Assembly (NCBI GenBank): GCA_014860455.1
Contig: JACZJQ010000339.1
Span: forward strand, 1-62,161
Origin: Bryobacteraceae bacterium
GTDB taxonomy: Bacteria > Acidobacteriota > Terriglobia > Bryobacterales > Bryobacteraceae
Direction: 5' to 3'
Length of the DNA: 62,161 nt
The position numbers and the translations under genes were made by a program. Below, piece by piece: positions 4,133 to 6,434 of the stretch. Every line of letters starts with the position of its first letter. The stretch's first letter is position 1. The notes below the pieces were generated by a model. The model worked only from the letters and a program-made list of their open reading frames with translations, did no database searches and was not told where the DNA came from.

Positions 4133-4947
4133 GCGACATCCTCACACAGCCGCTGGGTTGGAACTGGCTCGCCGCCGCCTTTGGGCTGTTGTTCGGCAGT
4201 TTCCTGAACGTCTGCATATCGAGGCTGCCGGACGACTACTCGGTGGTGGTTCCGCGGTCGCACTGCCCGCACTGCGGCAACTGGATTGCGTGGTACGACA
4301 ACGTACCGCTGCTCAGTTTCATTCTTCTGGGCGGGCGGTGCAGGGTGTGCAAGGCGGCGATTTCGTGGCGGTATCCGGCGGTGGAGGCGCTGACCGGGTT
4401 GCTGTTCTACCTGGCGGTGACGGCGCATGGACCGACGTGGGCGGGGCTGAAGTGGTCGATCTTCGGCGCCTGGATGGTGGCGCTGATCTTCACTGACATC
4501 GAGACGCGGATACTGCCTGATGAGTTCACCAAGTCGGGCTGGGTGCTGGGGATCCTGCTGTCGCCGGCCGCTCCGATTCCGCCCGGCATGCTAGCCCTGT
4601 TTCTGAGCGGCGAAACGGCGGGGCTGATCTCTCTGGCCGACTCGATTCTGGCTTCTGTAGTGCTGCCGGCGGGGCTGTGGCTAATGGCTATGGTGTATCA
4701 GAAGATTCGAGGGGTGGAAGGCCTGGGCTACGGCGACATCAAGATGCTGGGCTTCATGGGCGCGTTTCTGGGTTTTGAGCAGGCCCTGCTGACGCTGATG
4801 CTGGGGTCGTTGATCGGGGCGGTGCTGGGGCTGGCTTGGATCAAGTTGAGCCATCAGGATGCGGCGACATACGAACTGCCGTTCGGGTCGTTTTTGGGGG
4901 TCGCCGGGCTGATCGTAGCCTTCGTCCTGCCTATTGCGCTGCGGTAG
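4129..4947 (+). CDS. pilD: Prepilin peptidase (PilD/GspO, A24 aspartic protease)
   Basis: Cleaves the leader of type IV prepilins and pseudopilins and N-methylates the new N-terminus. The 272-residue inner-membrane protein has the N-terminal cytoplasmic zinc domain with two CxxC pairs (C46/C49 and C71/C74), then the aspartic protease with catalytic D123 in FTDIETRILPDE and D203 in GYGDIK, embedded in six or more membrane helices. ATG 4129 is chosen because it overlaps the glycosyltransferase stop (ATGA) and gives the family N-terminus GLLFGSFLNVCISRLP. No pilus structural genes are in the window. It is the last gene of the overlapping protease-glycosyltransferase-peptidase run. Confidence 0.95.
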   Translation: MSDILTQPLGWNWLAAAFGLLFGSFLNVCISRLPDDYSVVVPRSHCPHCGNWIAWYDNVPLLSFILLGGRCRVCKAAISWRYPAVEALTGLLFYLAVTAHGPTWAGLKWSIFGAWMVALIFTDIETRILPDEFTKSGWVLGILLSPAAPIPPGMLALFLSGETAGLISLADSILASVVLPAGLWLMAMVYQKIRGVEGLGYGDIKMLGFMGAFLGFEQALLTLMLGSLIGAVLGLAWIKLSHQDAATYELPFGSFLGVAGLIVAFVLPIALR

Positions 4948-4976
4948 GGGGAGGGGGAGGGGGTTGCCGGGCACGG

Positions 4977-5015
4977 AAAAAAATTGAGGCGGACCGTCGG
5001 AGGTCAGTCCGCCTC
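4977..5015 (-). terminator. Strong minus-strand intrinsic terminator
   Basis: Read on the minus strand, a perfect 9-bp stem GAGGCGGAC / GTCCGCCTC (5015-5007 and 4994-4986) with a 12-base loop is followed by AA and seven T residues (4983-4977). This is a textbook Rho-independent terminator. The nearest minus-strand gene stops at 5335, 320 bases away, so it ends either a long 3' untranslated region or a separate small RNA. Confidence 0.8.
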
Positions 5016-5130
5016 GTGAGCGGCGTTGGGGCGCCGCAAGGGAAGGAGTCGATGAGAGAGCAACCTGCTTCTCTCGCTGCGTCTACGGAGGAACCCCGCG
5101 GTCATTGTTTGGTCAATCACCGCGAGACCG
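4977..5130 (-). ncRNA. Candidate structured small RNA ending at an intrinsic terminator
   Basis: This lies in the only gene-free stretch over 300 bases (4948-5334). In addition to the terminator it contains three hairpins: GCGGTCATTG/CAATCACCGC (5098-5107 with 5114-5123, one mismatch, 6-base loop), GAGAG-AGCA/TGCT-CTCTC (5054-5075, one bulged base) and GCGGCG/CGCCGC (5020-5025 with 5032-5037). A weak TTATAC box at 5135-5130 could start a roughly 147-base minus-strand transcript. A fourth hairpin (about 5158-5184) lies upstream. I do not recognise 6S, SRP, RNase P or tmRNA signatures. Rest of the gap: no coding signal seen. It could also simply be the 3' UTR of the upstream gene. Confidence 0.35.
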
Positions 5131-5334
5131 TATAAAGATCGCTGGTCCGGCCCTGACGCTTGTCCCCCCTGCCGGGAACAAGCGCCAGAAGCCGTCCATC
5201 ACCGGTTGCCGGCATCCCGCTCCCGCGCCATTTCTGTGGGGCGCGCCTCAGTCTGCAACCGGAAGACCGAAACGGATTGGGCAGCTTGCCGTCCCACGAG
5301 TCGCACCGGACCGCGAGCCGCCCAACCGTGCCGG

Positions 5335-6225
5335 CTACCTCTGTGCCGTCATTTTGACCTTCGGCATGGAGAGATAACCGACAAGTGTGTCCTTGCGGAC
5401 TTCATTGATCACGAGCTCATAAGGAACCCGCGACTTCGATGTGACATAGAACTGGACAGGTTCGTTGACTGTCTTGTCCTTCTTCTCAATGCGCTTGTCG
5501 TCGGCGACGACTTCGACGGTGAAGCGGTTGCGGCGGACGTCGGTCTTCTTCACCTGCATGATGATGTCGCCGATACGCTGCTGCTTCTGCTTCTTGTTGA
5601 GGGTGAATTCGTAGTAGTCGCGCTGGCCGAGTTCCTTCAGCGCCGTCAGTTCGCGCGAGTTGGTGGCGATGAGGCCGCTCATCACGCCCAGGTCGCCTGT
5701 GGTGCGGCGCAGGTCGCCGATGGTCCTCTCGAGGTCGGACTTGGTGGCGGCGACGTCGGTACGGACCGTGGAGACCTCAGTGGTGACGTCGGTCAGCTTG
5801 GCTGAGAGAGCCGTGCTGGCCTGCTCGGTGCTGGCCTTGATCTCGTTGATTTCGGTGGCCAATTGCTGGGCCTGCTGGGTCTGCTCTTCCTGGCGCTTGG
5901 CGAGACGGGCGGTGATCTGGTTGGTCTGTCTGCGCAGGGCGGCGCGGGCGGCGGCAACGGTCTCGGCGCTCTTCTTGGCCGAGGAGTCCATCTCGCCCTT
6001 GAGGGCCTGGAGGGTCTCCAGCATTTCCCGGTCGGACTGAACCGCCGACTCGCGAAGCGAAGCCACTTCGCGGCCCATCTGCTTGAGCTCCAGTTGCTGA
6101 CTGACGAGGTTGGAGTGCTGCCATGCGGAGAAGCCGCCGACGACCACAAGACCCACGGCGAGAACAACACCCAGCCAAGGGACGCTGCGTTTTTCAGTGG
6201 TGTTCGACTCGGTTGTTGGATTCAT
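5335..6225 (-). CDS. Membrane-anchored coiled-coil protein of unknown function
   Basis: Not recognised by name. The product (296 residues) has a short polar N-terminus, one membrane segment (VPWLGVVLAVGLVVVGGFSAW), then a long predicted coiled coil rich in A, E, K, Q, T and S (about residues 45-200), and a C-terminal globular beta-rich domain (YYEFTLNKKQKQQRIGDI ... RNRFTVEVVADDKRIEKKDK ... QFYVTSKSRVPYELVI). Such N-in, C-out architecture places the coiled coil and end domain in the periplasm. ATG 6225 is preferred over 6246 because GAGGAT lies 9 bases before it. The downstream region holds a terminator at 4977-5015. Single gene, divergent from the methyltransferase fusion. A cell-envelope role is only inference. 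Confidence 0.8.
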   Translation of the reverse strand: MNPTTESNTTEKRSVPWLGVVLAVGLVVVGGFSAWQHSNLVSQQLELKQMGREVASLRESAVQSDREMLETLQALKGEMDSSAKKSAETVAAARAALRRQTNQITARLAKRQEEQTQQAQQLATEINEIKASTEQASTALSAKLTDVTTEVSTVRTDVAATKSDLERTIGDLRRTTGDLGVMSGLIATNSRELTALKELGQRDYYEFTLNKKQKQQRIGDIIMQVKKTDVRRNRFTVEVVADDKRIEKKDKTVNEPVQFYVTSKSRVPYELVINEVRKDTLVGYLSMPKVKMTAQR

Positions 6226-6434
6226 TGGATTGGTATCCTCACCCATTCGGCCAGCACGGTTAGGGCCAAACAGGATGATGTTGTGTTTTCAGTGGATTAG
6301 CGATTTCGTCTCAGGCAGTTCGCCCGTCATACGGAAAATTCTACCGAGGGCATCCGCGTGATTGCCGGAAGATCTTGCCGAATGCGAAGAAAAGACAAGA
6401 ATTTCCGGGCGCTGGCGGCACTAGTCATGGTGAG

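Follow-up and report, generated by a model that had tools for sequence, protein, structure and literature searches.

The window analysed here, a 62,161 nt stretch from a Bryobacteraceae bacterium (contig JACZJQ010000339.1), contains a prepilin-peptidase gene (Peptidase_A24) that ends at 4947(+), and an uncharacterised gene at 5335-6246(-) converges on it. The features of the minus strand are listed below, with reference to three genomes of the window's genus (G000, to which the window belongs, G003 and G002).

5335-6246 (-): upstream gene (open reading frame call), encoding an uncharacterised 303 amino acid protein
5053-5334 (-): 3′ untranslated region preceding the module, with structure in G000 and G003 and no alignment to G002 beyond chance
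5153-5188 (-): 15 bp hairpin with five one-sided G000/G003 changes, pairing kept in all (by eye)
5092-5129 (-): hairpin 1 of the four in the preliminary description, seen in the fold, with one pair broken in G003 (by eye)
5054-5075 (-): hairpin 2 (GAGAGA/UCUCUC), seen in the fold
4977-5052 (-): conserved terminal RNA module, from the genus alignment, pair counts and loci of relatives
5038-5048 (-): single-stranded CUCCUUCCCUU, predicted unpaired and invariant in three genus members
5020-5037 (-): hairpin with loop CCCCAA (4C loop), from the predicted fold
4986-5015 (-): intrinsic terminator hairpin with loop ACCUCCGA at 5004-4997, the loop being invariant in three genus members
4977-4983 (-): terminator U-run, read from the sequence

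AAGGGAAGGAG, a strong Shine-Dalgarno sequence, is complementary to the single-stranded CUCCUUCCCUU. No tRNA or tmRNA was found in the window. Immediately 3′ of the prepilin peptidase stop, GGGGAGGGGGAGGGGG at 4948-4963(+) is a possible G-quadruplex, which was not seen at the same place in G003 (by eye).

Folding of the minus strand at 4977-5145 gave four hairpins with a free energy of -73.0 kcal/mol, compared to a shuffled mean of -51.5 (z -5.46; 0/200 shuffles equal), which bears out the preliminary description of four stable minus-strand hairpins at 4977-5130. The plus strand of the same stretch folds more weakly (z -1.99; 9/200 shuffles equal), and the complete 3′ stretch at 4977-5334(-) gave a z-score of -5.87 with 0/100 shuffles equal. 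The terminator hairpin at 5015-4986(-) consists of 11 pairs, eight of them G-C and the outer nine Watson-Crick, around an 8 nt loop, and is followed by AA and then TTTTTTT, in agreement with the 9 bp stem and seven Ts originally reported. A loose match to a terminator is not above chance by itself, as a pattern scan returned 2 sites in 2.5 kb versus 2.2 from shuffles, whereas the fold z-score is above chance. The distance of 320 bases to the nearest minus-strand stop had also been given correctly, since the stop closest to the hairpins is that of gene 5335-6246(-). The best promoter-like site in 4977-5334(-) scored 7/12 and 100 shuffles gave 7-9, so that none is above chance.

The N-terminal segment of the 303 amino acid protein resembles a membrane anchor and its middle a coiled coil (by eye), and no Pfam family matched at E 0.001. 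Matches to this protein were present in 60 of the 61 genomes searched, its own included, often with more than one per genome, and substitutions between G000 and G003 numbered 31/13/84 over the three codon positions of the gene. Its mRNA would be expected to continue into the hairpin RNA.

A BLAST search of 61 genomes using 4977-5334(-) matched four, namely the window itself, G003 (88% over nearly the full stretch), G002 (88% over the final 72 nt only; 87.7% over 73 BLAST columns) and G008, where the match was discarded as it was 22 nt long and located on a contig different from that of the orthologous gene. BLAST of 169 bases against 150 family genomes produced only short matches outside the genus, 19 of which were read in context and none taken as a homologue. 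A scan for the linker-plus-hairpin pattern in a collection of one genome per species (84,980 species) returned two records, a Candidatus Solibacter MAG and a Bryobacteraceae MAG, with module letters identical to those of G003 and G002. The module follows the same gene in three of the four genomes of the genus; the contig of the remaining genome, G001, breaks off 151 nt beyond the gene's stop.

Comparison of G000 and G002 showed that the module is better conserved than the upstream gene, with 56/72 identical positions (ungapped) relative to 588/899 (0.65) in the coding sequence, and with identities of 0.45 before the module (0.44 being the mean of 20 shuffles) and 0.42 in the 150 nt after it. 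G003 and G002 share 52/72 positions in the module, versus 0.63 of the coding sequence. Identity between G000 and G003 is 0.86 in the gene, 0.89 before the module, 0.93 in the module and 0.81 after it; the 3′ stretch is therefore as conserved as the gene in this pair, and the part preceding the module may still matter there. A conserved structured RNA is present, as the preliminary description of a structured small RNA had proposed, but across the genus the alignable part is the last 76 nt only, and hairpins 1 and 2, seen in G000 and in its 88%-identical neighbour G003, are unalignable in G002. The G000 and G003 modules differ at five places, two of which together convert one terminator pair from G-C to C-G, and G002 has both sides of another pair changed, while the terminator loop ACCUCCGA and the 21 nt linker CUCCUUCCCUUGCGGCGCCCC are invariant in all three genomes. 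A conserved peptide within the module is unlikely, because in the frame with most letters shared by the three genomes the five G000/G003 changes all fall at first codon positions and alter the residue (by eye), and the frame that would place them at third positions contains a stop inside the module in G002.

A covariance model (R1) was built from two genus members only, G000 and G003, and run over 237 family genomes. Matches were obtained in 26 genomes at E 0.1 or better, which is about chance level, and the best match outside the genus (G073; E 2.8e-5 per genome, with 237 searched) was located after the orthologous gene. The 3′ stretches of G073 and G008 then served as DNA queries for further loci, and the 13 best loci of the ranked lists were examined; these fall in three other genera (g6, 1/1 genome; g56, 5/5; g59, 7/9), and all 13 have the orthologous gene upstream. 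Together with G000, G003 and G002 they give 16 loci with a readable 3′ end, all with the same strand and gene order and an intrinsic terminator in common with the upstream mRNA, into which transcription would read through from the gene. A hairpin plus U-run ends each of the 16 loci (the run is interrupted in G253), and CUUCCCU is located 58-63 nt before the U-run in 15 of them, G008 being without it; in shuffles of the same 110 nt stretches the heptamer occurred anywhere in 148/8000 (1.9%). The sequence UCCCCAA is also present in loops of G125, G168 and G253. Since the terminator loops of g56 are not C-rich, the pyrimidine stretch is the only family-wide candidate seed. It is not kept as a peptide, as the motif is located beyond the stop of the overlapping open reading frame in G073 (stop at 520, motif at 533), G150 (732 and 754) and G151 (527 and 538), and the frame in which it is read differs between G125 and G070.

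An exact pattern derived from the same loci (TTCTTCCCT, gap, GCGGGCCG) was present in 23/237 genomes, with 11 matches at the module place and 14 elsewhere, compared to 25 matches for a reversed control pattern, indicating that the combination is no common genomic feature. Pair counts were made on 13 of the 16 loci; G167 and G255 (no R1 match at E 1) and G229 (matched only with E 0.47, in a small search) were left out. Pairing was found in 95.6% of cells and double changes in 9/17 pairs, with 0/500 shuffles equal on four measures and 3/500 on the fifth, and slid controls paired in 34-50%; the alignment was fitted to the R1 structure, so these counts are favoured. Compensatory changes, proposed at the outset as a check on the RNA, were thus found in relatives.

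Between the gene and the module, the 13 loci of the other genera contain further hairpins with constant loops and changing stems (for example L105:1532-1729 in G168, among L099-L111). This core RNA was aligned using MAFFT and given a manually assigned structure based on the sequences and on RNAalifold output. Pairing was kept in 96.0% of cells, and double changes are present in 14/29 pairs; 0/500 shuffles were equal on four measures and 62/500 on the fifth (further pair types), and slid controls pair 42-50%. The core stretch is also an open frame of at least 148 codons in 13/13 loci. This overlapping open reading frame is fast-evolving, with a signal-peptide-like start (by eye). Substitutions in eight close pairs are nearly flat over the codon positions (e.g. 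29, 25, 28), the third position being highest in 6/8 but by little, unlike the upstream gene (31, 13, 84). The proposal that the stretch simply encodes a secreted protein was dropped on these counts and the covariation. Both of the first two core motifs were located in 12 loci, and in each of these the distance separating them is 2 mod 3, over six different lengths; this constant spacing speaks against a purely non-coding stretch and makes a combined RNA and coding role possible. Five g56 loci (L101, L102, L103, L106, L111) have an extra small open reading frame in the first ~270 nt past the gene stop, with a signal-peptide-like start and an RPGxPPDPL motif that occurs twice in some (by eye).

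A second model (R2), built from the 13 core loci, recovered the core at E 0.01 in those 13 of the 237 family genomes and in no others; at E 0.001 it identified the core in 9 of 399 genomes sampled from the class, which all belong to g56 and g59. Recovery of the 13 is by construction, as the model was built from them, and the absence elsewhere is the informative part, with the qualification that stricter filters can lose weak members. Nothing was found by R2 at the module place in the window's genus. Rfam searches of the core loci gave no match near gathering; matches to the ylbH leader were rejected, being below gathering and on the strand opposite the RNA. In an upstream-protein tree of 41 rows (42 initially, before G014 dropped out), the window's genus and the three core-bearing genera share one unresolved 17-row fork (support 84/66), which suits either loss of the core in the window's genus or its gain in the other three. 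It is conceivable, though doubtful, that the window represents the reduced form of a new Bryobacteraceae RNA family, the full form of which would consist of the conserved gene, a multi-hairpin RNA with the fixed loop sequences CUGUCACUC, UUCCGAGGC, CCUCCUCC and CUUGACCGA overlapping the fast-evolving open reading frame, and the terminal pyrimidine-hairpin-terminator module; the core would have been lost from the window's genus, where the module would persist as an independent regulator acting against Shine-Dalgarno sequences.

That a conserved module exists is well supported by its position, its predicted structure and the conservation and covariation found, and a regulatory role is plausible. 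The best explanation, which we put forward tentatively, is that the mRNA of gene 5335-6246(-) ends in this element, which is probably released as a 3′UTR-derived sRNA that pairs with Shine-Dalgarno sequences in an sX13-like manner. Synteny in 16 loci and the lack of any promoter-like site above chance favour the 3′ end of the upstream mRNA over a free-standing sRNA gene, so the small RNA part of the preliminary description is disfavoured in its free-standing form. The last ~76 nt would be a selected RNA module comprising the open pyrimidine CUCCUUCCCUU, the 4C-loop hairpin and the terminator with its ACCUCC loop. Cleavage of the 3′ UTR by an RNase would free a stable sRNA, and as no promoter-like site stands out this would be the natural route of release. 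The open pyrimidine stretch and C-rich loops would then pair with G-rich Shine-Dalgarno regions of other mRNAs and block their translation in the manner of sX13. Candidate target sites (GGGAAGGAG followed by ATG) number 30 in four genomes, two being the module's own complement, and for open reading frames of at least 30 amino acids there are three orthologous pairs; none is common to all three module carriers, and the regulatory step is for this reason unproved.

A serious rival, quite possible though less probable, is a strong but ordinary intrinsic terminator whose 3′ hairpin is protective; it would end and stabilise the upstream mRNA without acting on any target. A terminator is required by any gene, and the textbook anatomy, the site between convergent genes, the covarying terminator stems and the lack of a shared target all fit this account; the stem is explained in this way with no regulatory role, but the loop and linker are not. 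An ordinary terminator needs neither an invariant 8 nt loop nor an invariant 21 nt linker, but G000, G003 and G002 share both, with the preceding stretch at shuffled identity to G002, and CUUCCCU is held at a fixed distance in 15/16 loci. A separate sRNA gene of ~150-170 nt, transcribed from its own promoter within 5130-5190(-) and much like the original proposal, would account for the four hairpins (z -5.46) and for CTTTATAC near 5133, which by eye resembles a -10 box in G000. This is improbable, as the candidate box reads CTTTTGAC in G003, no promoter-like site of the type modelled exceeds chance, and hairpins 1 and 2 have no alignable counterpart in G002.

Two further readings were weighed against the same evidence. 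That the stretch is a remnant of the relatives' open reading frame or structured RNA, with the terminator as sole survivor, is very unlikely: the genus does share the 17-row group with the core-bearing genera in the upstream-gene tree (84/66), and SFP letters in frames of G000, G003 and G002 resemble those in the relatives' open reading frame, but the profile of that frame gave E 0.05 for the best genus frame versus 0.068 for the best of 200 shuffles, a marginal and non-significant advantage, the R2 core model finds nothing at the module place, and decay would not leave the module more conserved than the gene. Least credible is a small gene on the plus strand, in which GGGAAGGAG TCG ATG at 5040-5054(+) would be ribosome site and start. 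The spacing is plausible in G000 and G003, but the frame encodes 27 amino acids in G000 and 109 in G003, with a 2 nt indel between them, and G002 is without an ATG there (by eye); the plus-strand frame was rejected.

The element was compared to known RNA families. The preliminary description had recognised no known family, and a search of the full window against Rfam gave no match at gathering score. The best weak match was to Xoo2 (RF02241), which is similar in its terminator and preceding hairpin and differs in that its score of 24.9 bits, with E 0.011 for 501 bases, is below the gathering score of 45. 6S RNA (RF00013), for which the preliminary description had suggested an Rfam scan, is not supported, as it had no gathering match in the window and none up to E 10 in 4900-5400. 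Elsewhere in the genome the only 6S-like match at E 0.001 was at G000:C218:4888-5088 (L184), with 32 bits, below the cut-off of 46.4. A literature search returned no report of the module or core RNA among the matches listed. In PMC2864571, the Solibacter-1 motif is a candidate from Solibacter usitatus, without Rfam number in the table and marked '?' for RNA. In the parts of PMC3771888 on sX13 of Xanthomonas, this sRNA has an unstructured 5′ part and stable stem-loops with apical C-rich loops (4C), which are proposed to pair with G-rich motifs near translation starts, and was studied by deletion and reporters. Set against that account, the window loops CCCCAA and ACCUCCGA are likewise C-rich and on stable stems, although the g56 terminators differ; the resemblance would be one of mechanism rather than kinship, and the window element is known from sequence alone and closes the transcript of a conserved gene.

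The window presents a conserved RNA adjoining a gene family without known function, and relatives carry a covarying RNA without Rfam match that overlaps an open reading frame. To our knowledge, regulatory RNAs of the Acidobacteria, a large soil phylum, have been little studied. Processed sRNAs derived from 3′UTRs share the terminator of the upstream mRNA, expose a short seed and have no obvious promoter. The window module resembles them in sharing the upstream terminator and in having a conserved, predicted single-stranded seed, with putative processing and putative targets.
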